Assembly: GCA_017536555.1 (NCBI GenBank)
Contig: JAFXHE010000012.1
Location: forward strand, 1 to 41,417
Length of the DNA: 41,417 nucleotides
Source of the DNA: Alistipes sp.
GTDB taxonomy: Bacteria; Bacteroidota; Bacteroidia; Bacteroidales; Rikenellaceae
Direction of reading: 5' to 3'
The notes beneath the pieces are model-generated. The model was not told the origin of the DNA. It saw only the letters and a program-made list of their open reading frames with translations, and did no database searches. Below are positions 15,638 through 33,888 of this stretch, one piece after another. Position numbers and translations under genes: made by a program. Positions within the stretch are counted from its first letter, which is position 1, and each line of letters starts with the position of its first letter.

Positions 15638-15763
15638 GCAAAGTCATTGGGTTGAGGCTATTTTGAAGCTGCTCGCAGAGTGACAGACCGCAGCATACTG
15701 AAACGTATGTGAGGATCTGTCACTCAAGGCAGATGCCGAAAGAGCCCAACAGAATGGCTTTGC
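15638..15763 (-). ncRNA. Structured intergenic element 2 (downstream of infB)
   Basis: Outer arms GCAAAGTCATT (15638-15648) and AATGGCTTTGC (15753-15763) enclose CTGC/GCAG and a perfect 10-bp stem, GAGTGACAGA (15678-15687) with TCTGTCACTC (15716-15725). The core has internal-loop strands CCGCAG (15688-15693) and TGAGGA (15710-15715) around CATAC-TGAAAC-GTATG. It begins 9 nt after the infB stop, so it should be transcribed with infB; it is drawn on that strand. Elements at 20013-20113 and 30629-30746 share the core. It could equally be a DNA-level repeat. Confidence 0.55.
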
Positions 15764-15772
15764 CCTTATAAA

Positions 15773-18505
15773 TTACTTTCTCTTCACCTCTACCTGCTCA
15801 TAACCCTCGATGATATCGCCAACCTTGATATCGTTGAACGACTCGATGTTAAGACCGCAGTCCTGACCTACGGTAACCTCCTTCACGTCATCCTTGAAAC
15901 GACGCAACGAGCCGAGCTTACCCGTATAGATTACGATACCATCACGGATGACACGTATGAGGGTGTTACGCTGCATCTTACCCTCACGCACGATACAGCC
16001 CGCAACAGTACCCACCTTCGAGATCTTGAAGGTCTCCATAACCTCGGTAGAGCATACAATCTCCTCCTTCATAACTGGCTCAAGCATACCCTCGATAGCA
16101 TCCTTAATCTCGTTGATAGCATCGTAGATGATTGAGTAGAGGCGGATATCAATCTGCTCCTTCTCGGCAGCCTTACGTGCCGCAGCCGAGGGACGTACCT
16201 GGAAACCAACGATAACGGCATTAGATGCTGCTGCAAGCAATACATCAGACTCCGAAATCTGACCCACAGCCGAGTGGATGACGTTAACCTGCACGCTCTC
16301 CTTCGAGAGTTTGATAAGCGAGCCTGTCATAGCCTCAACAGAGCCATCCACATCACCCTTAACGATGATGTTAAGCTCCTTGAACGAACCGATAGCGATA
16401 CGACGACCAATCTCGTCGAGTGTAACGTGCTTCTGCGTCATTATACCCTGCATACGCTGCAACTGCTCACGCTTATTGGCAATCTCACGTGCCGAGCGGT
16501 CATCCTCCATAACATTGAAGGTGTCACCCGCCTGCGGTGCGCCATTAAGACCAAGCACCTGAACAGGTGTCGAAGGCCCTGCCTCGGTAACCTTCTTACC
16601 ATTCTCATCGAACATCGCCTTAACACGACCTGTATATGTTCCCGACAGGAGGACATCGCCAACACGCAGTGTACCATTCTGCACAAGGATTGTAGCAACA
16701 TAGCCACGACCCTTATCCAACATCGACTCGATGACAGCACCCGTAGCCTTACGGTTGGGGTTTGCCTTGAGCTCGAGCATCTCTGCCTCAAGCAACACCT
16801 TCTCAAGCAGCTTGTCGAGGTTCATACCCTTCTTTGCCGACACCTCCTGACACTGGTACTTACCGCCCCAGTCCTCAACGAGGTAGTTCATCTGTGAGAG
16901 CTGCTCGCGGATATGGTCGGCATTAGCCTGCGGCTTATCCATCTTGTTGATAGCAAACACCATAGGCACGCCAGCCGCTGATGCGTGGTTGATAGCCTCA
17001 ACGGTCTGGGGCATCACGCTATCGTCGGCAGCGACGATGATAATAGCCACATCCGTCATCTTCGCACCACGCGCACGCATCGCTGTAAACGCCTCGTGAC
17101 CAGGGGTATCAAGGAAGGTTATCTTCTGTCCATTAAGCTCCACAGAGTATGCACCGATGTGCTGGGTGATACCTCCCGCCTCACCTGCGGTGACATTTGT
17201 CTTACGTATATTATCCAGAAGCGAGGTCTTACCGTGGTCTACGTGACCCATAACGGTCACCACAGGGGGACGCGCCATAAGTTCGTCGGCACTATCCTCC
17301 TCGCTCTCGATAGCCTCCTGTATCTCTACCGAGACAAACTCTACGGTGAAGCCAAACTCCTCGGCAACAACCACCAAAGCCTCGGCATCGAGACGCTGGT
17401 TGATAGAGACCATAAGACCGAGGTTCATACACGCCGAGATAACCTCCATAGGCGACACGTTCATCATTGTAGCCAGCTCGCTCACGGTAACAAACTCTGT
17501 CACCTTGAGTACGCTGCGCTCCATCTCCTCGCGCTCTATCTCCTCGTTCATACGCTCGCGTACCTCGTCGCGCTTCTCCTTACGATACTTTGCACTCTTT
17601 GTCTTTGTGCCCTTCGCAGTAAGACGTGCCAAAGTATCCTTAATCTGCTTCTGTACCTCCTCGTCAGATACCTCGGGACGTACCACAGGCTTGGGCTGCT
17701 GCTTCTTCTGCTTCTTATTGTGGTTAGGCTGGTTGTGCTGACCGCCCTGTGCGTGGCTCTGGTTGTTGTTCTTACCACCACCATTATTGCCCTTATCCTG
17801 CTTGCCGCCACCCTTGCCAGCCTTGTTTACATCTATCTTCTCCTTGTCGAGACGCTTACGCTTATGCTTGCCACCAGGTGTCATATTTGAGACATCCATA
17901 GTACCCAATATCTTGGGGCCACCAAGCTGCTCCACCTGCGGACGGAAGACGCTATCGCGCTTCGGCTCGTCGTGGCTCTCCGTCTGGGGCTTTGGCTCGC
18001 TCTTGGGCTGCACAGGCTTCGCCTCCTCACGCTTCGGCTCCTCCTTTTTAGGCTCCTCCTTTTTTGCCTCCTCCTTTTTAGGCTCCTCACGCTTGGGCGC
18101 AGGCTCAACGGGTGCCGCCTGTGGCTTGGGCTCCTCACGCCTCTTGCCGTCGAGGTCTATCTTACCCAAAATCTTGGGGCCACGCACCTCCTCCTTGACA
18201 TTTACAACGTTGCTCTTCACGACGACCTCCTCCTCGATGTCGTCACCCTTCTGTCCTGGGTCGTTGATGCTCACCGTTACCTGCTTCTGCTGAATACGCT
18301 CACGTATGGCGTTACGCTCATTGCCAGACTGACGGTTACCACCAAACTCCTTCTCAAGGGCTGCATATACCTCGGCTGTCACAGGTGACGAGGGCGAGCA
18401 GTCGCTCTGCAAGCCCTTGCGCTGGAGAAAATCAGCGAGAGTGTTGAAACCCACCTTAAACTCCTTGGCAACCTGTATAAGCCTTATCTTTTTGCTATTA
18501 TCCAT
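15773..18505 (-). CDS. infB: Translation initiation factor IF-2
   Basis: IF-2 is the GTPase that brings initiator tRNA to the ribosome. The 910-residue protein has an N-terminal IF2_N domain (about 1-55), a long Lys/Glu/Pro-rich and Gly/Asn/Gln-rich linker (about 100-275) in which GPKILG occurs twice (109-114, 196-201), a second IF2_N-like region (about 335-395), and the G domain: GHVDHGKT (420-427), DTPGH (466-470), NKMD (520-523). C-terminal domains follow to VEVKRK. It is the last gene of rimP-nusA-infB, 32 nt after the nusA stop, a conserved bacterial arrangement. A structured repeat follows its stop directly. Confidence 0.98.
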
Positions 18506-18537
18506 CTAAATCTCCTTTCGTTGTTAATCGTTATACC

Positions 18538-19770
18538 CTACTCCTCGAACTCTGCCTTGAGAATCTCCACTACAGCCTCTGCCTGCTCAATCTCAAGGTC
18601 GGCACGCTGCGCTATCTCCTCTACAGACAACTCGAGAACACTCTTGGCGGTGTCGCAGCCCGCACCCTTGAGAGCCTCAATAATCCAGCCCTCAATCTCG
18701 TCTGCGAACTCTATGAGTGCAACATCCTCCTCCTCAATCTCACGATATACGTCGATATCGTAGCCTGTGAGCATCTTCGACAGGCGGATGTTCAAGCCAC
18801 CCTTACCGATAGCCAAAGATACCTCCTCGGGCTTGAGGTATACCGATGCTGTCTTACGCTCCTCGTCGATGACGATTGACGACACCTTTGCAGGGTTGAG
18901 TGAACGCTGAATCATCAGCGATGTGTTTGCAGTGTAGTTTACAACGTCGATATTCTCGTTACGCAACTCCTTGACGATGGTGTATATACGCGAGCCCTTC
19001 ATACCGACACAAGCACCTACGGGGTCTATACGCTCGTCGTATGACTCCACAGCAACCTTGGCGCGCTCACCAGGGATGCGGGCAATCTTCTTGATGGTGA
19101 TTAGACCATCATATATCTCGGGTACCTCCTGCTCGAAGAGACGCTCCAAGAACTGGTTGTCGGTACGCGAAAGGATGATACGGGGCTGGTTGTTGGTCAT
19201 CTCGACGCTCTTTACTATCGCCTTGATGGTGTCACCCTTGCGGTAGAAGTCATTGGGTATCTGCTCCGACTTGGGCAATGAGAGGTCGTTGTCCTCGTCG
19301 TCGCGCACCAATACCTCCTTCTTCCACACCTGATATACCTCGCCTGAGATAATCTCGCCAACCTTCTCCGAGTACTTCTCGAAGAGGGCCGCCTTCTCCA
19401 AATCGAGGATGCGTGATGCAAGGTTCTGGCGTAGCGACAACACAGCACGGCGACCAAACTTTGACATATCAATCTGGTCAACATACTCGTCACCAATCTC
19501 GTAGCTGGGGTCGATGCTCTTAACATCCGAGAGAGATATCTCGGTGTTCTCGTTTTCTACGGCATCATCCTCCACTACTACGCGGTTACGCCAAATCTCC
19601 AAATCGCCCTTCTCGGGGTTGATGATAACGTCGAAATTCTCGTCACTCTCAAACTGCTTCTGCAATGCGTGACGGAAGACATCCTCCAACACACCAATCA
19701 GAGTTGTGTTGTCGATGCTCTTAAGCTCCTTAAACTCAGCGAAGTTGCTGATAAGATTAATGTACTTCAT
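18538..19770 (-). CDS. nusA: Transcription termination/antitermination factor NusA
   Basis: NusA binds RNA polymerase and nascent RNA to control pausing, termination and antitermination. The 410-residue protein has the N-terminal polymerase-binding domain, an S1 domain, and two KH domains with recognisable GxxG loops (VGMKGSRI in the first, IGKGGLNI in the second), then an acidic C-terminal tail with a short helix-hairpin-helix-like stretch (AGCDTAKSVLELSVEEIAQRA). It lacks the longer repeats of E. coli NusA, which is normal for this phylum. It starts 353 nt after rimP, an unusually long spacer for this operon, filled with repeats. Confidence 0.97.
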   Translation of the reverse strand: MKYINLISNFAEFKELKSIDNTTLIGVLEDVFRHALQKQFESDENFDVIINPEKGDLEIWRNRVVVEDDAVENENTEISLSDVKSIDPSYEIGDEYVDQIDMSKFGRRAVLSLRQNLASRILDLEKAALFEKYSEKVGEIISGEVYQVWKKEVLVRDDEDNDLSLPKSEQIPNDFYRKGDTIKAIVKSVEMTNNQPRIILSRTDNQFLERLFEQEVPEIYDGLITIKKIARIPGERAKVAVESYDERIDPVGACVGMKGSRIYTIVKELRNENIDVVNYTANTSLMIQRSLNPAKVSSIVIDEERKTASVYLKPEEVSLAIGKGGLNIRLSKMLTGYDIDVYREIEEEDVALIEFADEIEGWIIEALKGAGCDTAKSVLELSVEEIAQRADLEIEQAEAVVEILKAEFEE

Positions 19771-19813
19771 CTCTGTATATTTTTATTTTGTTTTTGTTTT
19801 TCAGTTTTTATAT

Positions 19814-19935
19814 GCGTACTGCCCATTGACGGCATATTTTGTTAGCGGCAGCAGATAGCCCTTTATCGCAACCCTAATTTTCGTTAGAAAGGGTTAGATG
19901 CAACGCTCGGCAAAATTGACGGCGATGGGCTGTAC
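19814..19935 (-). repeat. Structured repeat, copy A, in the rimP-nusA spacer
   Basis: The 87-nt segment 19814-19900 is duplicated at 19940-20025. Copy A folds back with its right side: GTAC-t-GCCCAT near 19816-19826 with ATGGGC-t-GTAC at 19925-19935, then ATTTTG with CAAAAT, GCG with CGC, and AGCCCTTT with AAAGGGTT closest to the loop. It lies within the region that must be transcribed to connect rimP with nusA. No open reading frame of note is present. Confidence 0.7.
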
Positions 19936-19939
19936 ATAG

Positions 19940-20025
19940 GCGTACTGCCCATTGACGGCATATTTTGTTAGCGGCAGCAGATAGCCCTTTATCGCACCCT
20001 AATTTTCGTTAGAAAGGGTTAGATG
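19940..20025 (-). repeat. Structured repeat, copy B, in the rimP-nusA spacer
   Basis: This is an 86-nt direct copy of 19814-19900, identical except for one missing base (gcaccc instead of gcaaccc). Its right-hand partner arm is replaced by element 1 (20013-20113), which begins inside this copy and shares the GCAGATAGCCCTTTATC end sequence. The arrangement suggests tandem insertion or recombination among related elements. Confidence 0.8.
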
Positions 20026-20113
20026 TGGGGGCTGGTCGCAGGCGTTGAAAGCGGAGCATACCTGACGTATGTGAGCATTTCAACGACAAGCCAGACGCCG
20101 CAGATAGCCCTTT
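20013..20113 (-). ncRNA. Structured intergenic element 1 (downstream of rimP)
   Basis: Outer arms AAAGGGTTA (20013-20021) and TAGCCCTTT (20105-20113) enclose CGTTGAAA (20043-20050) with TTTCAACG (20078-20085), internal-loop strands GCGGAG (20051-20056) and TGAGCA (20072-20077), and a small hairpin CATAC-CTGAC-GTATG (20057-20071). It starts about 10 nt after the rimP stop. The core is shared with 15638-15763 and 30629-30746 although the stems differ in sequence. Function is unknown. Confidence 0.55.
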
Positions 20114-20123
20114 ATCACGAAAA

Positions 20124-20591
20124 TTACTTGAAGTCGAGATACTCTTTAGTATACTTTATCTCCTCCCAACGATACTCCTTCGTGACCTGCACCACCTGCT
20201 TACGCTTCTTACCCTCTACGCTCTGCTTCTCCTCGTAGGAGATGACAATGCCATCGTCTGACACGGAGTCCAACTTTGCCAAAATCTTGACACCATCCTT
20301 GAGCAACACCTCTACTGACTGACCTAAAATCTTACGATACTGTCGCAACTGCTTCAGCTCGGAGCCTATGCCTGCCGATGCCACCATCAGCGCGAAGTCC
20401 TCAACTTCACGATCCAGCTCGCTCTCGATAGCGCGATTTAGTGCTGCGCAATCTTCGAGTTTTACAGCGGTGTCGCTATCAATAAGCAGCTCAATCTCGC
20501 CCATAGGCGTAATCTTGCAGTCGACAACGAACATATCGCTACTTTCGAGGTGTCGCTCGGCAATCTCTATAACTCTTTTAGCATCAATCAT
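20124..20591 (-). CDS. rimP: Ribosome maturation factor RimP
   Basis: RimP assists assembly of the 30S ribosomal subunit. The 155-residue length and the sequence (VVDCKITPMGEIELLIDSDTAVKLEDCAALNRAIESELDR, then FALMVASAGIGSELKQLRQYRKILGQ) match the family: an N-terminal alpha/beta domain and a C-terminal SH3-like domain. It is first in the conserved rimP-nusA-infB order, which confirms the call. The transcript has a leader of about 90 nt containing a strong hairpin. Confidence 0.96.
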   Translation of the reverse strand: MIDAKRVIEIAERHLESSDMFVVDCKITPMGEIELLIDSDTAVKLEDCAALNRAIESELDREVEDFALMVASAGIGSELKQLRQYRKILGQSVEVLLKDGVKILAKLDSVSDDGIVISYEEKQSVEGKKRKQVVQVTKEYRWEEIKYTKEYLDFK

Positions 20592-20646
20592 ATACGGCTT
20601 GTAATTTATAATATTTTCAATAAATCTTTTGCTACAAAGTACGAAA

Positions 20647-20669
20647 TAAGGGGACTCTCCGTCCCCTTA
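20647..20669 (-). promoter_or_regulatory. Hairpin in the rimP leader
   Basis: A perfect 9-bp stem, TAAGGGGAC (20647-20655) with GTCCCCTTA (20661-20669), around a 5-nt loop, between the promoter box and the rimP ATG. It is followed on the minus strand by TTTCG and could attenuate the rimP-nusA-infB transcript. NusA autoregulates its operon in other bacteria, but the use of this hairpin is speculation. Confidence 0.55.
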
Positions 20670-20688
20670 CTTTCGCTCAATAACGCCA

Positions 20689-20696
20689 CAAAGGTA
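20689..20696 (-). promoter_or_regulatory. -7 promoter box of rimP-nusA-infB
   Basis: TACCTTTG on the minus strand matches TAnnTTTG, about 98 nt before the rimP ATG. The -33 region has only a weak TTGG near 20716-20719. Confidence 0.65.
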
Positions 20697-20790
20697 TAAA
20701 TTATTTTTGGATTACCAATATATATAAGGTATTTTTTTAGTGCAACAGAGGTATTTTAGGGTCGGTGGTGATCTTGGGGGGGGTGGATAG

Positions 20791-20927
20791 GGAGGTTAGG
20801 GAAATTAGGGAAATTAGGGAAGTTAGGGAAGTTAAGACTTTCCTTAAACTCCCTAAACTCCTTAAACTCCTTAAACTCCCTAAACTCCTTAACTCCTTAA
20901 ACTCCTTAAACTCCTTAAACTCCCTAT
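20791..20927. repeat. 9-bp-period minisatellite in two opposite orientations
   Basis: About five units of the type RRTTAGGGA (from 20791 to about 20835) are followed by about ten units of the type YTAAACTCC (20843-20927). The second unit is close to the reverse complement of the first, so the tract is a large imperfect inverted repeat with one G-rich and one C-rich arm. It lies between the divergent rimP and panB genes. Because 9 is a multiple of 3, open frames run through it on both strands, but they are pure repeat. Confidence 0.88.
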
Positions 20928-20990
20928 TCCGCCAGATTAAATTCAGCGCAGAGGGCAGAGGGTTATATGGCAAGCAAAAAATAGAGGGGT

Positions 20991-21023
20991 ATTGTTGTAT
21001 TATACGAAAAATTGCTATCTTTG
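20991..21023 (+). promoter_or_regulatory. Promoter of panB
   Basis: TATCTTTG (21016-21023) matches the -7 consensus 24 nt before the panB ATG. The -33 position carries ATTG (20991-20994) rather than TTTG, spaced 21 nt. Confidence 0.7.
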
Positions 21024-21047
21024 TATAATAAACCAAACGCAAAGACT

Positions 21048-21863
21048 ATGTCAGTAGAAAGCAATGTAAGGGCGGTGACGACACTACGACTTACAGAGAT
21101 GAAGCAGCGTGGCGAGAAGATTGCTATGCTCACCTCGTATGATTACTCTATGGCGAAGATTGTGGATCAGGCGGGTGTCGACGTGATACTCGTCGGCGAC
21201 TCTGCAGCCAATGTTATGGCGGGCTACGAGACCACACTCCCCATAACCCTCGATATGATGATTTACCACGCGAGATCGGTGGTACGCGCCGTGAAGCGTG
21301 CCTTGGTCGTTGTAGACCTGCCATTTGGCACATATCAGGGTAACTCAAAGGTGGCTCTCGACTCGGCAGTACGCATTATGAAGGAGACCGAGGCAGATGC
21401 CGTAAAGTTAGAGGGCGGCGAAGAGGTTTTGGAGTCGATAAACCGCATTTTATCGGCGGGCATCCCCGTAATGGGACACCTCGGACTAACGCCACAGTCG
21501 ATACACAAGTTTGGCACGTACAACGTGCGCGCAAAGGATGAGGCAGAGGCGACCAAGCTGCTGCACGATGCCCACCTATTAGAGGAGGCTGGATGCTTTG
21601 CCATAGTCATAGAGAAGGTGCCCGCGACACTCGGCAAGCGCGTATCGGAGGAGCTACACATACCCATCATAGGCATTGGTGCTGGTGGCTCAACAGACGG
21701 TCAGGTGCTTGTGGCACACGATATGTTGGGTATAACACAGGCATTCTCGCCGCGCTTCCTGCGTCGCTATGCCGACCTCGGCACAGAGATATCAGAGGCT
21801 GTAGGACACTATGTAGACGATGTCAAGAGCCGCGACTTCCCCAACGAGAAGGAGCAATATTAA
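21048..21863 (+). CDS. panB: 3-methyl-2-oxobutanoate hydroxymethyltransferase (ketopantoate hydroxymethyltransferase)
   Basis: PanB makes ketopantoate from 2-oxoisovalerate and methylene-tetrahydrofolate, the first committed step of pantothenate and CoA synthesis. I choose the ATG at 21048 (271 aa); the longer frame begins with a TTG inside the promoter. Motifs: LTSYDYSMA (28-36), VGDSAANV (49-56) with metal-binding D51, [10 protein letters not shown] with D90, K120 in AVKLEGG, and the catalytic glutamate E189 in [11 protein letters not shown]. The length is typical. It is followed by its own terminator; no panC or panD is in the window. Confidence 0.96.
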
Positions 21864-21900
21864 CAGCCACAGAGCATAGTAATAACGACGGCATACAACA

Positions 21901-21945
21901 AGCAGGGGTGCGTCTAACAAGCGGTTAGCACACCCCCGCTTTATA
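21901..21945 (+). terminator. Terminator of panB
   Basis: A long stem with a few mismatches, AGCAGGGGTGCGTCTAAC (21901-21918) with GTTAGCACACCCCCGCT (21924-21940), around a 5-nt loop, followed by TTATA. It lies 37 nt after the panB stop. Confidence 0.75.
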
Positions 21946-21977
21946 GAGGGCTCACAACAACATATATCATCAGCGAT

Positions 21978-22430
21978 ATGACGACACTCACTCAACTCTC
22001 CGCAACACTTCGCCACGCCGTGGAGCTACGACGCAACAAGGGTGTGTCGTGCGTAATCATTAGTGGCGGTGATGTTTTGTGCTTTGAGCGTCGCGGCATA
22101 GCCGACCTGCACATATTGCTACACACGCATCCCGAGATATTGCACAGCTGCGTCATCGCCGACAAGGTTGTGGGCAAGGGTGCTGCCGCGCTAATGGTTG
22201 CAGGCGGCGTAGCAGAGGTATTTAGCGAAGTTATGAGCCGTCCCGCCGCCGAGCTCCTGGAGGAACACAACATCAAATATGGGTGCGACACGCTTGTCGA
22301 CAACATCATAAACCGCACGCAGACAGGGCTATGTCCCGTTGAGAGCATCTGTTGCGAGCTACACACAATAGGCGAGATGGTAGAGTCCATCGACAGCTTT
22401 GTGGCAAAGCCGCACGACAATAATAATTAA
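21978..22430 (+). CDS. DUF1893-family protein
   Basis: The 150-residue protein matches the DUF1893 family: SCVIISGGDVLCFERRGIADL, then CVIADKVVGKGAAALMVAGGVAEVFSEVMS, then YGCDTLVDNIINRTQTGLCPVE. Members have a cytidine-deaminase-like fold in a solved homologue, but no reaction is established. Several cysteines (C25, C31, C104, C120, C126, C127) are present, including the conserved GLCPVE. It starts a probable operon with an ECF S-component (21 nt spacing) and an aldo/keto reductase (6 nt spacing). The neighbours suggest a vitamin- or cofactor-linked role, as inference only. Confidence 0.85.
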   Translation: MTTLTQLSATLRHAVELRRNKGVSCVIISGGDVLCFERRGIADLHILLHTHPEILHSCVIADKVVGKGAAALMVAGGVAEVFSEVMSRPAAELLEEHNIKYGCDTLVDNIINRTQTGLCPVESICCELHTIGEMVESIDSFVAKPHDNNN

Positions 22431-22451
22431 CGTAACTAACACACTGATAAT

Positions 22452-22964
22452 ATGAGTAATAGGACACTACAACTACACAGCTTATCGCTACAAGAGGGTC
22501 GCACATACCTCTTTGCCACGCTCTTTATTGCGGGTAACATCATCCTTCCGCAGCTCTGCCACCTGATACCAGAGGGTGGACTACGCCTGCTGCCCATATA
22601 CCTATTCACGCTTATCGGCGCGTACAAGTATGGTGCAAACGTGGGTATGCTAACAGCTGTGGCATCGCCCGTAATCAACTCGCTACTCTTCGGAATGCCC
22701 GCAGCGGCAATGCTGCCCATCATCGTAATAAAGTCGATACTGCTCGCACTCGCAGCAGCCTATGCCGCACAGACGACACGTCGCGCAACGCTCCTTACGC
22801 TGGTGGCTGTGGTAGCCTTCTATCAAGGCGTAGGCGCACTTATAGAGTGGGCAGCAACAGGCTCATTTGCAGCAGCCACGCAGGATATTGTGCTGGGCAT
22901 ACCTGGCATCGCCATACAGATATTTGGCGGCTGGTTTATCATAAACAACATCCTCAAAAGGTAA
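22452..22964 (+). CDS. ECF transporter S-component-like membrane protein
   Basis: This 170-residue protein with about five to six membrane segments resembles the substrate-binding S-components of energy-coupling factor vitamin transporters. The pattern GAYKYGANVGMLTAVASPVINSLLFGMPAAAMLP and the C-terminal GIPGIAIQIFGGWFII fit that family. S-components need an ATPase pair and a T-component, none of which is in the window, so it would use a shared module elsewhere or work alone. The substrate is unknown; panB upstream has its own terminator, so pantothenate should not be assumed. Confidence 0.72.
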   Translation: MSNRTLQLHSLSLQEGRTYLFATLFIAGNIILPQLCHLIPEGGLRLLPIYLFTLIGAYKYGANVGMLTAVASPVINSLLFGMPAAAMLPIIVIKSILLALAAAYAAQTTRRATLLTLVAVVAFYQGVGALIEWAATGSFAAATQDIVLGIPGIAIQIFGGWFIINNILKR

Positions 22965-22970
22965 GCAACT

Positions 22971-24098
22971 ATGTTTGGCACAAAGAGATTAGGTTTTGGA
23001 TGTATGCGTCTACCCATCACCGAGCCAGGAGAGTTCAAGAAGGTGGACATAGCACAAGTGGAGCGTATGGTTGATGAGTTTATCGCGCGCGGCTTCACAT
23101 ATTTCGACACGGCGTATATGTACCACGACTTTGAGAGTGAGCGCATTATGCGCGAGACCCTCGTAAAGCGTCATCCGCGCAACAGCTACACGCTCACAAC
23201 AAAGCTGCCTGTGATGATGCTTAAGACCGAGGAGGATCAGGAGCGCGTATTCAACGAACAACTTGAGAAGTGCGGCGTAGACTTCTTCGACTTCTACCTG
23301 CTGCATAGCATAAACCTCAAGACATACTCGCGTGCAAAGCGTCTCGACAGCTTCGGCTTTGTGCAGAAAAAGCGCGACGAGGGTAAGATACGCCATATAG
23401 GTATGTCGTTTCACGACACCGCCGACCTGCTTGATGAGATACTCACCGAGCATCCCGAGCTGGAGTTCGTGCAGTTGCAGATAAACTACCTCGACTGGGA
23501 GAACGACAGCATACAGTCGCGCAAGTGCTATGAGGTGGCACGCAAGCACAACAAGCCGATACTCGTAATGGAGCCCGTAAAGGGTGGCACACTTGCACGT
23601 GTCCCCGAAGAGGTGGAGAGGCTGTTCAAAGCCGAAAGAGCCGATATGTCTATCGCCTCGTGGGCTATACGCTACGTGGCGAGCCTCGATGGTGTGGAAG
23701 TGGTGCTCAGTGGAATGTCCGATATGTCACAACTTGAGGACAACACCTCGTATATGCGCGAGTTTCAACCCCTTAACAGCACCGAGAGTGCTATTATCGA
23801 CAAGGCGGTAGAGATCATCAACGCCTCGATACCCATTCAGTGTACAGCGTGCAGATACTGTGTTGACGGCTGTCCGAAGCATATCGCCATACCAGAGTAC
23901 TTCAACCTGTATAACGCCAATAAGCAGTCGCTGAACCACCTCTTCTCGACGCAGGAGTTCTACTATGACACATATACAACACGCCACGGGCGCGCTGGCG
24001 ACTGCATAGCGTGTCGCAAGTGTGAGCAGGTGTGCCCGCAACATCTGCCAATAGTGGAGCATCTAAAGCGTGTGAGCGAGATGTTCGATAAGAGATAG
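22971..24098 (+). CDS. Aldo/keto reductase with C-terminal ferredoxin domain
   Basis: An NAD(P)H-dependent oxidoreductase domain (about 1-280) is fused to two [4Fe-4S] cluster motifs. The aldo/keto reductase catalytic set is visible: D46 and Y51 in YFDTAYMYH, K78 in TTKLP, H112 in YLLHS. Cluster motifs CxxCxxCxxxCP are at about 291-302 (CTACRYCVDGCP) and 345-356 (CIACRKCEQVCP). At 375 residues it fits the ferredoxin-containing subfamily common in anaerobes. It begins 6 nt after the S-component gene and ends the operon at a terminator. The substrate is unknown. Confidence 0.93.
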   Translation: MFGTKRLGFGCMRLPITEPGEFKKVDIAQVERMVDEFIARGFTYFDTAYMYHDFESERIMRETLVKRHPRNSYTLTTKLPVMMLKTEEDQERVFNEQLEKCGVDFFDFYLLHSINLKTYSRAKRLDSFGFVQKKRDEGKIRHIGMSFHDTADLLDEILTEHPELEFVQLQINYLDWENDSIQSRKCYEVARKHNKPILVMEPVKGGTLARVPEEVERLFKAERADMSIASWAIRYVASLDGVEVVLSGMSDMSQLEDNTSYMREFQPLNSTESAIIDKAVEIINASIPIQCTACRYCVDGCPKHIAIPEYFNLYNANKQSLNHLFSTQEFYYDTYTTRHGRAGDCIACRKCEQVCPQHLPIVEHLKRVSEMFDKR

Positions 24099-24116
24099 CC
24101 GCATCAGGCACAAATA

Positions 24117-24160
24117 GAGAGGGGATGACTTCAAAGTGATAGTCATCCCCATCTCGTTTA
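24117..24160. terminator. Bidirectional terminator between the aldo/keto reductase and clpB genes
   Basis: GAGAGGGGATGACT (24117-24130) pairs with AGTCATCCCC-a-TCTC (24141-24155), with one bulged base, around a 10-nt loop. It lies between convergent genes. The T-tract is weak (CGTTTA), so efficiency is uncertain. Confidence 0.75.
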
Positions 24161-24214
24161 TGGGTCGCAATAAGTGGTAGGGTTTGGAAGCGACGATACT
24201 TAATTATGAGGTAC

Positions 24215-26803
24215 TTAATTATAAAATATTAAGCCGTCGCCGTCGGCATCAATGCGTATCGGCTTGGTGCGGTCTACCCTACCCGCAAGTATTCGCTTCG
24301 ACAAGTCGTTGACAACCTCGCGCTGTATGGTACGCTTCACGGGGCGTGCGCCATACAGAGCATCGAAACCGACATTGGCGATATGACGGCGCGCCTCGGA
24401 GGTATATATAAGCTCTATGCCGTTGTGGTGCAACATCTTGGCAACACTGCGCAGCTGCATATCTACAATCTCCTCGACAGCCTTGCGGCTGAGTGGCTCG
24501 AACATCACAATCTCGTCGACACGGTTCAAAAACTCGGGCTTGAGGCTCTGCTTCATAAGCTCGATAACATCGTTGCGCGTCTGCTCCACAAGCTCGGGTG
24601 ACGGCTCGCCATCGCACTGCGCAAAACGCTCCGAGATGAGGTGTGAGCCCATATTGGAGGTCATAATGATAATGGTATTGCGGAAGTCCACCGTGCGCCC
24701 CTTATTGTCGGTGAGTCGTCCATCGTCGAGCACCTGAATCAAGATGTTGAAGACGTCGGGGTGTGCCTTCTCAAACTCATCAAGCAGCACCACCGAGTAG
24801 GGCTTGCGGCGCACCGCCTCGGTGAGCTGACCGCCCTCATCGTAGCCCACATATCCTGGAGGCGCACCCACCAAGCGCGATACAGAGTGTCGCTCCTGAT
24901 ACTCCGACATATCTATACGCGTAAGCATCTGATCGTCATTGAACAAGAACTCGGCGAGAGCCTTTGCTAACTCGGTCTTTCCGACACCTGTTGTACCGAG
25001 AAATATGAACGAGCCCACAGGACGACGACCATCCGACAAGCCCGCACGCGAGCGACGTACAGCATCCGATATCGCCTCAATCGCGACATCCTGCCCCACT
25101 ACTCGCTGGTGCAGCTCCTGCTCCATATTGAGTAGCTTCTCGCGCTCCGACTGCAACATACGCTTAAGCGGTATTCCCGTCCAACGCGACACCACCTCGG
25201 CGATGTCATCTGCCGACACCTCCTCCTTTATCATTGCCGTTGCCGACTGTAGGCGCAGCTCCTCCTCAAGCGTAGAGACACGCTTCTCAAGCTCCACGAT
25301 GGTGCCATAGCGCAGCTCTGCCACACGTCCATAGTCGCCCGCACGCTCTGCCTGCTGCGCCTCGACCTTTGAACGCTCAATCTGCTCCTTGAGGTGCTGT
25401 ATCTCCTGTATGCGGTCACGCTCCGACTGCCACTTGGCACGTAGCGATGCATAGTGCGCCTTCTGCTCCTCAATGTCGGCATCGAGTCGCTCGATACGCT
25501 CGGCATCTCCCTCACGGCGTATAGCCTCACGCTCAATCTCAAGCTGGCGTATACGACGGTCAAGCTGGTCAATCTCCTCGGGCACAGAGTTCATCTCAAG
25601 ACGCAAGCGCGAGGCGGCCTCGTCGACAAGGTCTATCGCCTTATCGGGAAGGAAACGGTCGGTAATATAGCGGTGCGACAGCTCCACAGATGCCACTATA
25701 GCCTCATCCTTGATACGCACGCGGTGGTGGTTCTCGTAACGCTCCTTAAGACCACGCATAATAGATATAGCATCCTCCATCGTAGGCTCATTCACCATAA
25801 CCTTCTGGAAGCGTCGCTCCAACGCCTTATCCTTCTCAAAGTACTTCTGGTACTCGTCGAGGGTCGTCGCACCTATCGTGCGCAACTCGCCACGTGCAAG
25901 TGCAGGCTTAAGGATGTTTGCCGCATCCATAGCTCCGTCACTCTTACCTGCGCCCACAAGCGTATGTATCTCATCAATGAAGAGCAGCACCTCGCCCTCG
26001 GCAGCAGTAACCTCTTTTACGACAGCCTTTAGACGCTCCTCAAACTCGCCCTTATACTTTGCTCCAGCTATAAGCGCACCCATATCGAGCGAGTAGACTA
26101 CCTTATTTTTGAGGTTTTCGGGCACATCGCCATCGACGATACGGTGAGCAATGCCCTCGGCAATAGCCGTCTTGCCGACACCCGCCTCACCAACGAGTAT
26201 AGGGTTGTTCTTCGTGCGGCGCGAGAGTATCTGCAACACACGTCGTATCTCCTCGTCACGCCCGATAACGGGGTCAAGACGACCTGTGCGCGCCCCCTCA
26301 TTGAGATTTATGGCATACTTGCCAAGCGCATCAAACTCCATTGTCTCGGTCTGCGAGTCTATGGTCTGCCCCTTGCGGAACTCCTTGACAGCATCGACAA
26401 TCTGTCGCTCGCTCGCGCCGTTGCGATTGAGGATGTCGCGCGCTGTGCCACGCTCCGCAGCAAGTGCCGCGAGCAGGTGCTCCACAGAGGCGTATCTATC
26501 CGAAAATGTGCGTGTTAGCTCTACGGCACGCTGCACGACAGCCGATGCCTCGCGCGAGAAGTAGACATCGTCAGCATTCGCCACGCGCGGAAGATGCGAC
26601 ATAGCCTCATTTAGCTCCTTACGCAAAAGTGCAACATTGGCACCTACACGTCCGAGGAGGTAGCTCGACAAAGAGTCGTCATCGGCGATTGCCGCCGACA
26701 AGATATGCAGCGGATCGAGCGACTGCTGCTGCTGTCCGCGAGCAAGAGTCATTGCACTCTGCAAAAGCTCTTGCGCCTTGATTGTAAGTGTGTTAATGTT
26801 CAT
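24215..26803 (-). CDS. clpB: ATP-dependent disaggregase ClpB
   Basis: ClpB threads aggregated proteins together with DnaK. The 862-residue protein has the N-terminal Clp domain (about 1-145), a first AAA+ domain with Walker A GEAGVGKT (205-212), the long coiled-coil middle domain (about 400-525, with [18 protein letters not shown]), and a second AAA+ domain with Walker [11 protein letters not shown]. The middle domain and the absence of an N-terminal zinc finger or ClpP-binding loop separate it from ClpA, ClpX and ClpC. It is monocistronic and divergent from the S46 peptidase gene. A cluster of TGTCA/TGACA half-sites upstream is the likely control region. Confidence 0.97.
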
Positions 26804-26875
26804 AATATCTTTGATTTTTGTAATTTCACTGCCGTTTTGCTACTACAATGTCAAAACTCTTGCCACAACCCAAAA

Positions 26876-27000
26876 GACGAAATTTTGTCAGTTGTAAAAG
26901 ACATTTCGTCAGTCGCAGGTGTCATCCAACCGACATTATGGCACCTCGGCGTGACAGGTGTGACACCAAGAGCGCAGAGCTCGTAGGCGACAATTGTCGC
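26876..27000. promoter_or_regulatory. Inverted repeats and TGTCA half-sites between clpB and the S46 gene
   Basis: GACGAAAT-TTT-GTC (26876-26889) and GACATTTCGTC (26900-26910) are an 11-bp inverted repeat with a 3-nt insertion. TGTCA or TGACA half-sites recur (TTGTCAG about 26886, GTGTCA about 26919, GTGACAGGTGTGACACC at 26951-26967), and a perfect 14-bp palindrome GCGACAATTGTCGC lies at 26987-27000. The 329-nt spacer otherwise holds only the S46 promoter box. Confidence 0.6.
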
Positions 27001-27076
27001 AACAGAGCATCCACATAACCGTTGTATTGGTTGTTATTTTTTTCACATATAGGACAATATTTCAAAAAAAATTGCG

Positions 27077-27084
27077 TACCTTTG
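27077..27084 (+). promoter_or_regulatory. -7 promoter box of the S46 peptidase gene
   Basis: TACCTTTG matches TAnnTTTG, 48 nt before the ATG at 27133. No TTTG -33 box is evident. Confidence 0.65.
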
Positions 27085-27132
27085 TTTGGTTTGATGTGTA
27101 CTTTAAATTTTTAAACTTAAATAATTAATTCT

Positions 27133-29214
27133 ATGAAAAGACTATTGACACTGTTGGCAGCCGTAGGCGTATGCTTCTCGGCTATTGCTGACGAGGGTAT
27201 GTGGCTGTTGCCCTACATCAAGAAGATGAACAGCAAGGATCTTAAGGAGCACGGTTGCAAGCTCAAGCCAGAAGATATCTACTCGGCAGAGAAGTCATCA
27301 CTCAAAGATGCTATCGTCGTATTTGGCGGTGGCTGCACAGGCGAGATTGTATCGCCCAACGGTCTACTCTTCACCAACCACCACTGCGGCTACTCATCTA
27401 TTCAGAAGCTCTCATCCGTAGAGCACGACTACTTGAAGGATGGCTTCTGGGCACAGAATAATGCCGAGGAGCTTCCTGCAGAGGGTCTCTCTGTTCGCTT
27501 CGTGCGCCACATCTTCGACGTTACGGCAGAGATCAAGGGCAACATCCCCTCGACAGCATCGCAGCAGGAGTATATGACGCTCGTTGAGCAGAACAAGACT
27601 GCACTTATCACAAAGTTGAGTGAGCAGCACCCAGGAATGCAGATTATCGTCCCCTCGTTCTTTGGCGACAACCAGTTCTTTGCATTTGTCTATGAGGTAT
27701 ATACCGACGTGCGTTTAGTAGGTACTCCCCCCTCGTCTATCGGTAAGTTTGGTGGCGACACCGACAACTGGATGTGGCCGCGTCACACTGGCGACTTCTC
27801 AATCTTCCGCGTATATGCAGGCAAGGATAATCGCCCCGCAGCATACTCGCCCGACAACGTACCATACAAGGCGGAGAAGTGGCTCAACATCTCGCTCAAG
27901 GGTATCGACGAGGGTGACTTCGGTATGATTATGGGCTTCCCAGGCTCAACAGAGCGTTATATGACCTCTTACGAGATTGACTATATGTTGGAGGTAGACA
28001 ACCCACAGCGCATCTACATCCGTGGCGAGCGTCAGAAGATTTTGCGCGCCTTTATGGATGCAGACCAGGCTGTACGTATCAAGTACGACTCGAAGTATGC
28101 ACAGTCGGCGAACTACTGGAAGAACTCTATAGGTATGTCACGCGGCATCGAGAAGCTCAACGTACGAGAGAAGAAGGTGGCACAGGAGGCTGCATACACA
28201 GCTTGGGCAGCGAAGAGCACCCTGCCCGAGGAGCGTTATATCGACGCACTCTCGCTCATCGAGCAGTCGCAGGTGGAGGCAAAGCGTGAAAACGCTACAT
28301 TGCAGTATCTCTCGGAGGCATTTATCCAGTCTGTGGAGCTTATACAGACTATGCTTGGTGTAAACGACTATGAGCAGTTCTACAAGGACTACGATGCAGC
28401 GGCTGACCGCGCCGTAGCAAAGCGTATGTTCCAGATATACCGCGAGAACAACGAGATACTACCCTCGATATACACCAAGATTGACAACGAGTTTGGTGGC
28501 GATAGCGACAAGTATGTTGACTGGCTATATGACAACTCACAGCTCACAAGCTATGAGGACTACCTCGCCGTAGCCAACCTCTCGGCAGAGGAGCGCAAGG
28601 CTGCGTCGGAGAGCGACCCCGCCTACGAGCTAACAATGTCGATTATCACCCTTTACCGCCAGCTCATCCCCGCAATATCGGCTGCACAGGAGAAGTATTC
28701 GGAGGGTCATCGTCTATACATCGACGGTCTTATGAAGATGCAGCCCAACAAGGCGTGGGCATCGGATGCCAACTTCACCATCCGTCTTACATACGGTAAC
28801 GTCCTGCCATACAGCCCTGCTGACGGCATCATCTACAACCACTACACAACACTTGATGGTGTCATCGCCAAGGAGGATCCATCTAACCCCGTAGAGTTCA
28901 CCGTTCCCGAGCGTCTTAAGGAGCTATATGCCAAGAGGGATTATGGTCGTTATGCCGATAAGAATGGTGAGCTTCCCGTAGCATTCCTCGTAAACTGCGA
29001 CATTACAGGTGGTAACTCGGGCTCTCCCGTAATGAATGCCAAGGGCGAGCTTATAGGTCTTGCATTTGATGGCAACTGGGAGGCTATGTCTGGCGACGTT
29101 GCCTTTGAGCCAGAGTTGCAGCGCACAATAGCTGTCGACATCCGCTACGTATTGTTCATCATCGAGAAGTATGCTGGCGCAGGCTGGCTGCTCGACGAGC
29201 TTACAATAAAATAG
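27133..29214 (+). CDS. S46-family dipeptidyl-peptidase, DPP7-like
   Basis: S46 enzymes are chymotrypsin-fold serine exopeptidases of the bacterial envelope that release dipeptides for asaccharolytic growth. A signal peptide ends near residue 19 and the mature protein begins DEGMWLL. The catalytic histidine lies in FTNHHCGY (H84) and the catalytic serine is S629 in GGNSGSPV. Eighteen residues after it is G647 (AFDGNWE). In Porphyromonas gingivalis the equivalent residue is Gly673 in DPP7 (hydrophobic P1) and Arg673 in DPP11 (acidic P1), so this enzyme is predicted to be DPP7-like. The 693-residue length is typical. The gene is monocistronic. Confidence 0.93.
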   Translation: MKRLLTLLAAVGVCFSAIADEGMWLLPYIKKMNSKDLKEHGCKLKPEDIYSAEKSSLKDAIVVFGGGCTGEIVSPNGLLFTNHHCGYSSIQKLSSVEHDYLKDGFWAQNNAEELPAEGLSVRFVRHIFDVTAEIKGNIPSTASQQEYMTLVEQNKTALITKLSEQHPGMQIIVPSFFGDNQFFAFVYEVYTDVRLVGTPPSSIGKFGGDTDNWMWPRHTGDFSIFRVYAGKDNRPAAYSPDNVPYKAEKWLNISLKGIDEGDFGMIMGFPGSTERYMTSYEIDYMLEVDNPQRIYIRGERQKILRAFMDADQAVRIKYDSKYAQSANYWKNSIGMSRGIEKLNVREKKVAQEAAYTAWAAKSTLPEERYIDALSLIEQSQVEAKRENATLQYLSEAFIQSVELIQTMLGVNDYEQFYKDYDAAADRAVAKRMFQIYRENNEILPSIYTKIDNEFGGDSDKYVDWLYDNSQLTSYEDYLAVANLSAEERKAASESDPAYELTMSIITLYRQLIPAISAAQEKYSEGHRLYIDGLMKMQPNKAWASDANFTIRLTYGNVLPYSPADGIIYNHYTTLDGVIAKEDPSNPVEFTVPERLKELYAKRDYGRYADKNGELPVAFLVNCDITGGNSGSPVMNAKGELIGLAFDGNWEAMSGDVAFEPELQRTIAVDIRYVLFIIEKYAGAGWLLDELTIK

Positions 29215-29237
29215 TGGCCTAAAAAGTATAAATAGTT

Positions 29238-29269
29238 GGGTTGTCGTTAGCGCGGCAACCCATTTTTTG
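29238..29269 (+). terminator. Terminator of the S46 gene, overlapping the queA promoter
   Basis: GGGTTGTCG (29238-29246) pairs with CGGCAACCC (29253-29261), followed by ATTTTTTG. The queA -7 box begins at 29270, so terminator and promoter share this DNA. Confidence 0.82.
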
Positions 29270-29277
29270 TATCTTTG
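29270..29277 (+). promoter_or_regulatory. -7 promoter box of queA
   Basis: TATCTTTG matches TAnnTTTG, 20 nt before the chosen ATG at 29298, and directly follows the U-tract of the preceding terminator. Confidence 0.7.
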
Positions 29278-29297
29278 CACCGTTTAAGCGAAGTATA

Positions 29298-30515
29298 ATG
29301 GAGCGATATATCGACATAAACGACTTTAACTACACGCTGCCCGACGAGCGCATAGCGAAGTTTCCGCTCGCAGAGCGCACATCATCAAAGCTGCTCGTAT
29401 ACGACAACGGAGAGATAACTGAGAGCTATTTCCACGCTGTGGCAGACCACCTGCCCGAGGGTGCACTGTTAGTATTCAACAATACGCGCGTGGTGCGCGC
29501 ACGTATGGTGATGCACAAAGCGTCGGGAGCACGCATCGAGGTATTCTGCCTTGAGCCTCACAACCCCAAAGACTATGAGCGAGCCTTTGCCACGCGTCAC
29601 CAGAGCGAGTGGAGCTGCATTGTGGGCAACCTCAAGAAGTGGAAAGAGGGCGAAGTGGGCATTGACTTTGAGCTTGGTGGCGAGCAGCACACACTACGCG
29701 CAGAGATTATAGAGCGCGGAACACGCGAGCATATAGTACGCTTCAAGTGGTCGGCAGAGTGTACCTTTGGCGAGCTGCTTGAGACACTCGGACGCATACC
29801 CATACCACCCTACCTCAACCGCGAGAGTGAGGAGGTGGACAACACCCGCTACCAGACGGTATATGCGCGCTACGAGGGCTCTGTGGCAGCACCCACAGCG
29901 GGTCTGCACTTCAGCGACGAGCTGATGAGCAGGATGCGCGACACGGGCTTTGAGTTTGACGGCGTGACACTCCACGTCGGAGCAGGCACATTCCTCCCCG
30001 TAAAGGATGACGATGCCACGAAGCACCCTATGCACACCGAGCACTTCTCTGTAACACGCGCCACAATAGAGCATCTACGCGCCAAGTATGACAACATCGT
30101 CGCCGTGGGCACTACATCTGTACGCACGTTAGAGTCACTCACAGCCCTTGCGTGGCGCATACACATATCGGGCAGTGCCGACACAGAGCGTACCATAGGA
30201 CAGTGGGAGCTATACGACATCCCCGAGACGTTCTCTGGCTACGACGCACTCACAACGCTACTCGACTATATGCAGCAGCACAACCTCGCGGAGCTAAAGT
30301 CGGCAACACAGATAATGATTACACCGTTAGGATACCGTTTTCGTATTGTTAAGTACATAATAACCAACTTCCACCAGCCCAAGTCAACGCTGCTGTTGTT
30401 GGTTAGTGCATACGTTGGCGACAACTGGAGGCGCATATACGACTATGCCCTCGAAAACGACTTCCGCTTTTTGAGTTACGGCGACTCGTCGCTACTCAAA
30501 GTAGATAGAGGCTAA
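29298..30515 (+). CDS. queA: S-adenosylmethionine:tRNA ribosyltransferase-isomerase
   Basis: QueA transfers and isomerises the ribosyl part of SAM onto 7-aminomethyl-7-deazaguanine in tRNA, giving epoxyqueuosine. I choose the ATG at 29298 (405 aa, MERYIDINDFNYTLPDERIA) because the longer frame starts upstream of the promoter box. Family motifs are clear: LLVFNNTRVVRARM near the N-terminus, then RIPIPPYLNR, then YQTVYARYEGSVAAPTAGLHFS, and LHVGAGTFLPVK; the C-terminus has ITNFHQPKSTLLLLVSA. The protein is somewhat longer than typical QueA (about 345-355), the extra length lying mostly in an insert near residues 60-120. No other queuosine gene is in the window. Confidence 0.95.
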   Translation: MERYIDINDFNYTLPDERIAKFPLAERTSSKLLVYDNGEITESYFHAVADHLPEGALLVFNNTRVVRARMVMHKASGARIEVFCLEPHNPKDYERAFATRHQSEWSCIVGNLKKWKEGEVGIDFELGGEQHTLRAEIIERGTREHIVRFKWSAECTFGELLETLGRIPIPPYLNRESEEVDNTRYQTVYARYEGSVAAPTAGLHFSDELMSRMRDTGFEFDGVTLHVGAGTFLPVKDDDATKHPMHTEHFSVTRATIEHLRAKYDNIVAVGTTSVRTLESLTALAWRIHISGSADTERTIGQWELYDIPETFSGYDALTTLLDYMQQHNLAELKSATQIMITPLGYRFRIVKYIITNFHQPKSTLLLLVSAYVGDNWRRIYDYALENDFRFLSYGDSSLLKVDRG

Positions 30516-30585
30516 AATTGGTCTATTTCAGAGATAGCAACATATACGCCTCATAGAAAACAGCGTCAAAAATAGGCACAAACAA

Positions 30586-30624
30586 GGAGGTGACTAAAAA
30601 GTTAATTAGCCACCTCCATTTTGT
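30586..30624 (+). terminator. Terminator of queA
   Basis: GGAGGTG-a-CTAA (30586-30597) pairs with TTAG-c-CACCTCC (30606-30617), followed by ATTTTGTT. Confidence 0.82.
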
Positions 30625-30628
30625 TATA

Positions 30629-30746
30629 AGGTTGAATAAAAAGATGTAGTTTTAGGCCTGCGATGCCCGAAAAAGCGGAGTTTACTGAGCGTAAATGAGC
30701 ATTTTGAGGGCGAGCATAACGACAAAATACACTTATTATTCAGCCT
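30629..30746 (-). ncRNA. Structured intergenic element 3 (downstream of lacZ)
   Basis: Outer arms AGGTTGAATAA (30629-30639) and TTATTCAGCCT (30736-30746) enclose TGC/GCA, GCCC (30665-30668) with GGGC (30708-30711), tandem GA/GA mismatches, AAAA/TTTT, internal-loop strands GCGGAG (30675-30680) and TGAGCA (30696-30701), and the hairpin TTTAC-TGAGC-GTAAA (30681-30695). The inner stem replaces the CATAC/GTATG of elements 1 and 2 with a different but still paired sequence. It starts 22 nt after the lacZ stop and lies beyond the queA terminator, so lacZ transcription is the likelier source. Confidence 0.55.

Positions 30747-30768: not shown

Positions 30769-33888
<3,120 letters not shown>

Follow-up and report, generated by a model that had tools for sequence, protein, structure and literature searches.

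Positions 1–41,417 of contig JAFXHE010000012.1 of Alistipes sp. (Rikenellaceae; GenBank assembly GCA_017536555.1), called the window here, carry three intergenic elements, E1, E2, and E3, each forming a single long hairpin on the + strand. We lean, by a modest degree, toward regarding them as copies of a mobile hairpin, about 120–145 nt long and non-autonomous, that shares its structural family with the enterobacterial repetitive intergenic consensus (ERIC), spreads in the mode of a miniature inverted-repeat transposable element (MITE), and contains a core that is perhaps read as RNA. The observations behind this are the dispersal of the copies, loops held at fixed spacing, stems with changes in both arms, one strand folding better than the other in most sets, a core present in several phyla, and target duplications in Salinicola.

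A first reading made from the sequence alone had placed the elements at 20013–20113 (E1), 15638–15763 (E2), and 30629–30746 (E3), 9–22 nt past the stop codons of minus-strand genes, with a shared GCGGAG/TGAGCA core and a CCGCAG/TGAGGA variant in E2. The sequence agrees on each point, and the open reading frames (ORFs) give distances of 10 (rimP), 9 (infB), and 22 nt (lacZ). Since these three genes are all on the − strand, the + strand of E1–E3 is antisense to the adjoining gene. The + strand folds have z scores of −7.5 (E1), −8.6 (E2), and −4.7 (E3), from 200 dinucleotide shuffles each, and folding is weaker on the − strand (−4.0, −6.9, and −4.4, respectively). Compared with E1 and E3, the folded core of E2 shows a compensated change of G–C to C–G in the pair below the loop. 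This variant is also present at L094 (L and G numbers denote loci and genomes), and CCGGAG..TGAGGA occurs at L088 and L090 and in the family f42. The core pattern by itself is not decisive within one window, in which it gave two matches against a shuffle mean of 0.25, with 4 of 100 shuffles reaching two.

Two covariance models were used. R1 was built from A1, an alignment of 21 gap-free Bacteroidota copies chosen from 27 (the six left out were four of another type, one chimera, and one deletion). R2 was built from A2, which has 18 rows from other taxa (16 Proteobacteria, one Desulfobacterales, and one record titled as a Pedobacter metagenome-assembled genome [MAG]; 1 of 19 candidates was dropped). 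R2 contains no sequence from the window or its genus, and neither model contains an enterobacterial sequence. Applied to the window, R1 found E3 (E = 1.6e-21), which is in its training set, and E1 (5e-14) and E2 (1.1e-8), which are outside it; the next match was at 0.18. R2 recovered the same three elements (4.5e-13, 7.1e-8, and 3e-5 for E3, E1, and E2) with no other match below 1.

Judged by eye from the apex outward, the hairpin consists of a loop of 3–8 nt, an NNTAC/GTANN stem, GGA opposite GA, two G–C pairs that are swapped in the CCGCAG/TGAGGA variant, a stem, GA opposite GA in many copies, another stem, and then a stem ending in AAGGC (or TAGGC) opposite AACGC or AACGA; the outermost stems vary from copy to copy. 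The sequence-only reading had proposed that the stems covary around conserved loops, and alignments A1 and A2 bear this out, their stems having changed with pairing kept. In A1, 91.4% of 441 cells pair, against 22–51% for slid structures, and 70 cells are changed on both sides against 22.3 after shuffling. The corresponding values for A2 are 96.2% paired and 69 against 19.6. Single mismatches outside the core, counted in helices found without allowing G·T pairs, were G·T rather than A·C in 67 versus 7 cases in the genus and 84 versus 32 at the other loci; the latter set, here and in the deduplicated and convergent-gene counts, includes the Alistipes loci L220, L225, and L228 and other Bacteroidota. 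Strict deduplication left ratios of 37:7 and 69:29, with G·T at 18 (genus) and 35 (other) positions and A·C at 6 and 18. Related copies lack independence, and the p-values of these comparisons are therefore only a guide. Better folding of the + strand was seen in 95 of 98 elements of the genus, 97 of 106 at the other loci, and 15 of 23 in f42.

The claim of a dispersed family with many copies is supported by the R1 search (E ≤ 0.001, stricter filters), which gave matches in 32 of 41 genus genomes and none in nine, with at least 12 copies in the own genome and a maximum of at least 90. These copy numbers are lower bounds, the candidates scored per genome being at most 121 in this search, 16 in a draw from the phylum, and 150 in the named genomes described below. 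In the phylum draw, 33 of 296 genomes had matches: 31 belong to family f42, and the remaining two are the own genome and one further genome. Of 61 genomes, 26 contain the strict core pattern, namely 25 of the 37 from the genus (the own among them) and one of the 24 order-mates; the highest count in one genome is 68, and a reversed control pattern matched once across all 61.

The range of the family far outside Bacteroidales, its likeness to ERIC, and the antisense placing of the better-folding strand were all beyond the view of the sequence-only reading. A pattern scan of genome contigs yielded at least 118 stretches holding the core, and a set of 67 sources includes two records titled Alistipes (L220 and L225). 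Among 20 named genomes picked for holding the core pattern, 18 had R2 matches, with at least 150 copies in Chromobacterium haemolyticum, at least 137 in Pseudomonas sp. EpS/L25, and at least 66 in Salinicola tamaricis, and Rhizobium paknamense and Pleomorphomonas oryzae had none. The loop set AAGGC/AACGC, GA/GA, and GGA/GA beneath an NNTAC/GTANN apex recurs at equal spacing in Pseudomonas, Halomonas, Salinicola, Chromobacterium, and others. Among the matches listed, the apical and next stems are both paired in 73 of 127 pattern hits, 13 of the 73 being in records titled as Bacteroidota. AAGGC lies within 60 nt upstream of the core in 44 of these 73 (letter shuffles predict 7.5), AACGC lies no more than 60 nt downstream in 47 (3.6 predicted), and both are present in 33 (0.4 predicted); exchanging the two motifs as a control gave 2 and 4. 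The motifs are mostly 21–22 and 16–17 nt from the core, as in A1. Because the contig scan selected the core only, the flanking loops are independent evidence. In rhizobial hits, the core is shared and the outer loops are different by eye. The core is conserved across phyla, and the ends are not. A canonical-core copy was also seen in a Rickettsia endosymbiont MAG (L213). The comparison with Rfam that the sequence-only reading had called for returned no family at gathering score in the window and tRNA alone in 18 loci of other taxa; sub-threshold hits to assorted microRNA and Salmonella small RNA models were attributed to chance similarity with long hairpins.

ERIC has been a typing tool for many years and has a target duplication of TA; to our knowledge, both its mobilizer and its function are unsettled. 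Excerpts of two papers describe it as a 127-nt imperfect palindrome with many, mostly intergenic copies (PMC10969869, PMC2759123), hosted by Enterobacteriaceae and Vibrionaceae (PMC10969869). The genus of the window is outside this host range, and the elements are therefore classed as relatives, not as ERIC itself. In the excerpted Table 1a of PMC2759123, from which we took the ERIC consensus (also called RU-1), the reverse complement reads AAGGC, then GGAG-CTTAC-ATAA-GTAAG-TGA, then AACGC twice. It folds at −61.8 kcal/mol, versus −45.2 kcal/mol for the printed strand, and is the better-folding strand in 28 of 28 located copies. The GGAG-NNTAC-loop-GTANN-TGA apex is common to ERIC and the window elements, and AAGGC and AACGC are almost equally spaced from GGAG/TGA (25/21 nt versus 24/19 nt, counted by hand); by eye, the loops and apex agree, whereas the stems do not. 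ERIC differs in a GA/GA loop in place of GGA/GA with a bulged A, in having a second, inner AACGC and an extra GA loop, and in lacking stop-codon polarity. Both models were tried on 30 loci with an ERIC, each about 3.1 kb long (the ERIC of L447 coincides with that of L253); loci lacking a hit at E ≤ 10, and one tie, were scored as misses. The top hit was the ERIC, on its expected strand, in 20 loci with R1 and 23 with R2, about one being expected by length alone. In an earlier test on eight longer stretches, it was the best hit in five for each model. A canonical-core element beside ERIC in Klebsiella oxytoca (L474) scored E = 1e-5 with R1 and 1.6e-7 with R2. No core was visible by eye in the RU-2/YPAL and RU-3 sequences excerpted from PMC2759123, and our searches of open-access papers found no link between ERIC and elements outside gammaproteobacteria.

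The predicted bias to gene 3' ends is pronounced and polar. With genes taken as ORFs of at least 100 codons by a simple script, 62 of 151 genus loci have an antisense stop codon 40–62 nt to the right of the core, and four have a sense stop equally far to the left. The ratio is 29:4 among the 96 other loci, 12:0 among 29 Salinicola loci, and 7:0 among 24 loci of f42, two Salinicola elements (L323; L162/L345) being counted both with the other loci and with Salinicola; in the four sets together, 110 of 118 abutting cases have the antisense stop at the right end. TAA makes up 56 of 73 abutting stops versus 88 of 167 in the control (Fisher p = 5e-4), and TGA 3 versus 20 (p = 0.06). In Salinicola, ends of two types were recognized in 25 of 30 loci; TNA is present on both sides in 8 of 10 (seven identical) and YTAR in 12 of 15 (seven identical). 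TA flanks are seen by eye at E1, L030, L034, and L069, and not at other copies. Where a TNA or TA target coincides with a stop codon, insertion can restore that codon, which accounts for nearness to stops and leaves the polarity unaccounted for. Strand choice among the 66 Salinicola copies does not follow the sampled GC skew, as judged by eye alone, and a replication-strand bias was set aside.

The sites also turn over. The rimP end is occupied in three species by element types unlike one another, 45–47 nt from the stop, and among the 19 of 30 rimP loci parsed by script, others have a remnant or nothing. Empty rimP sites (e.g., in G004, G017, and G064) were considered as border markers, and their divergence is too great for the borders to be fixed. 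L030 and L078 stand at one orthologous site and share their outer arms, and their inner stems are entirely different yet paired; the G015 version of the inner stem recurs in other G015 copies. This wholesale replacement points to conversion between copies, and it qualifies the earlier claim of selection on structure: the excess of G·T over A·C supports such selection, but conversion also spreads paired stems.

Here, we propose how such copies may arise and persist. Host transposases reading the ends would move the copies in trans, as with MITEs, and insertion at a TNA or TA target would allow a copy to enter a stop codon and restore it. With less assurance, the core may have been kept because a factor widespread among bacteria recognizes its fold in single-stranded form. 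By analogy with ERIC in Yersinia, where excerpts of PMC10969869 and PMC2267715 report that copies at 3' ends alter transcript levels via an RNase E site, the core would most likely be read as RNA and alter decay or read-through at gene 3' ends. This RNA role is our leading guess. A wider scheme, which we regard as tentative and give somewhat less than even chance, is a phylum-spanning superfamily of mobile hairpins with ERIC as its first described member, in which an ancient RNA or single-strand signal in the core, read by a factor that most bacteria have, was repeatedly coupled to different transposon ends. A family joining ERIC to hairpins of Bacteroidota, pseudomonads, halomonads, and others provides a large comparative set, in which the invariant loops tell what must be recognized and the strand asymmetry tells which strand; strain-rich hosts allow fresh insertions to be detected. 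The family is also structured, matches none of the Rfam models searched, and reaches at least 150 copies per genome.

Several results weigh against the mobile, ERIC-related hairpin. The antisense placing of the better-folding strand is the main difficulty for an RNA role, as it counts against a simple function in the mRNA of the adjoining gene. ERIC was missed in 10 (R1) and 7 (R2) of the 30 loci, its E-values are weak (0.007 at best, ranging to about 8), and the models align it in either of two registers, so that the comparison supports a shared fold with shared loops and does not prove common descent. The stop count for ERIC (40–66 nt) is 6:4 of 28, without polarity. In A1, only 10 pairs have both-side changes versus 7.4 (23 of 500 shuffles reach this value), the measure of further pair types is reached by 39 of 500 shuffles, and the outermost modeled helix is 78.1% paired with no both-side change; family f42 shows no mismatch asymmetry (G·T 16, A·C 15). 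The ends and duplications are not clean in the genus of the window, in which no transposase was identified as the mobilizer. For one of the two end types in one Salinicola genome, end pairs span 141–211 bp and none is wider, giving no parent element.

Known systems match the elements in part. The Salinicola copies, though not cleanly those in the genus of the window, resemble prokaryotic MITEs in their terminal inverted repeats and in duplications of TNA or YTAR, which we take to be those of IS5-family groups; the elements differ from MITEs in having a folded core common to families with unlike ends and in the missing parent element of that single search. The integron attC core is GTTRRRY, which by eye is not kept across copies. 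Repetitive extragenic palindromes (REPs) and bacterial interspersed mosaic elements, with their REP-associated tyrosine transposases, are likewise palindromic and intergenic, but REPs are 20–40 bp in length (excerpt of PMC3733652). The REP type suggested by the sequence-only reading is not supported, as the Y1 (HUH) tyrosine transposase was found in 0 of 41 genus genomes by a search positive in 5 of 14 control genomes. HMP2_4078, HMP2_4205, HMP2_1065, and HMP2_1032 of Bacteroidetes, compared by their description in excerpts of PMC8040213 only, are also long palindromic structures, and the candidates of that study may include some of the present elements.

The nearest rival to an RNA role is a role in mobility, in which the core serves spreading and not the host, a mobility enzyme recognizing the + strand hairpin, either in single-stranded DNA or in an RNA intermediate. 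This is the less likely account, though a serious one: it would give strand asymmetry without any function on the sense strand of a gene, and it suits both the stop-codon polarity of the four sets (62:4, 29:4, 12:0, and 7:0) and a core conserved while copies move. The unlike duplications (TNA and YTAR, with TA for ERIC) suggest instead that different transposases read the ends, and Y1 HUH enzymes were not found in the 41 genus genomes. Complementary arms might also arise without selection, through template switching within a hairpin and conversion between copies, as the replaced inner stem at L030/L078, common to other G015 copies, and the modular chimeras would illustrate. We regard this as improbable, since non-complementary loops are kept across phyla and an asymmetry of G·T over A·C is not expected from it. 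Most improbable is that the elements are ordinary bidirectional terminators, alike by convergence. Of the 75 genus loci that have a gene on each side, 28 lie between convergent genes, and the outer arms are A-rich and T-rich by eye. However, a scan for intrinsic terminators (a short GC hairpin followed by a T run), allowing loops of 3–8 nt only, found no match at E1–E3, which lends no support to the terminator role raised by the sequence-only reading; moreover, E1 lies within the rimP-nusA-infB gene run, and the loops are shared across phyla. The features of the window are listed in Table 1.

Table 1. Hairpin elements, repeats, and adjoining genes in the window
Feature	Positions	Strand	Basis
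E1, full hairpin (type II), between nusA and rimP; rimP stop codon inside right arm	20001..20126	+	Fold, R1, R2
E1 core, GCGGAG-CATAC-loop-GTATG-TGAGCA	20051..20077	+	Sequence, pattern
E2, full hairpin, 3' of infB	15638..15763	+	Fold, R1, R2
E2 core, variant CCGCAG..TGAGGA	15688..15715	+	Sequence
E3, full hairpin (type III), 3' of lacZ; outer loop TTTTAGGCCTGCG / CATAACGACAAAA	30629..30746	+	Fold, R1, R2
E3 core, GCGGAG..TGAGCA	30675..30701	+	Sequence, pattern
Separate terminator-like hairpin, left of E3	30586..30617	−	Terminator scan and G028 copies
Part of 126-nt repeat; outer frame of E1, different inner part	19810..19880	+	Sequence
Second copy of 126-nt repeat part, 93% identical	19936..20006	+	Sequence
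rimP, stop codon at right end of E1	20124..20591	−	ORFs
infB, stop codon beside E2	15773..18505	−	ORFs
lacZ-type beta-galactosidase, stop codon beside E3	30769..33888	−	ORFs

A second terminator-like hairpin (GTGGGTGACTA...TAGTCACCCAC type) is located to the left of E3 and of most type III elements read in G028 (L048–L064). The repeat copies at 19810–20006 have an inner hairpin without the GCGGAG/TGAGCA core, and similar units were found at the rimP end of G025 and beside some G035 copies. Some type III copies carry an insert of about 70 nt (TTAAGTTCC...GCGGCG) at a fixed place inside the AGGC loop (L050, L053, L055, and L062 in G028; L087 and L104 in G035). In Salinicola, L439 and L440 are 211-bp versions with the same ends and a second hairpin nested in the arm, and similar inserts are present in Pseudomonas copies. 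Tandem arrays of near-identical units were observed at L016 and L018, with a spacing of 128 nt in the own genome and about 122 nt in G028.

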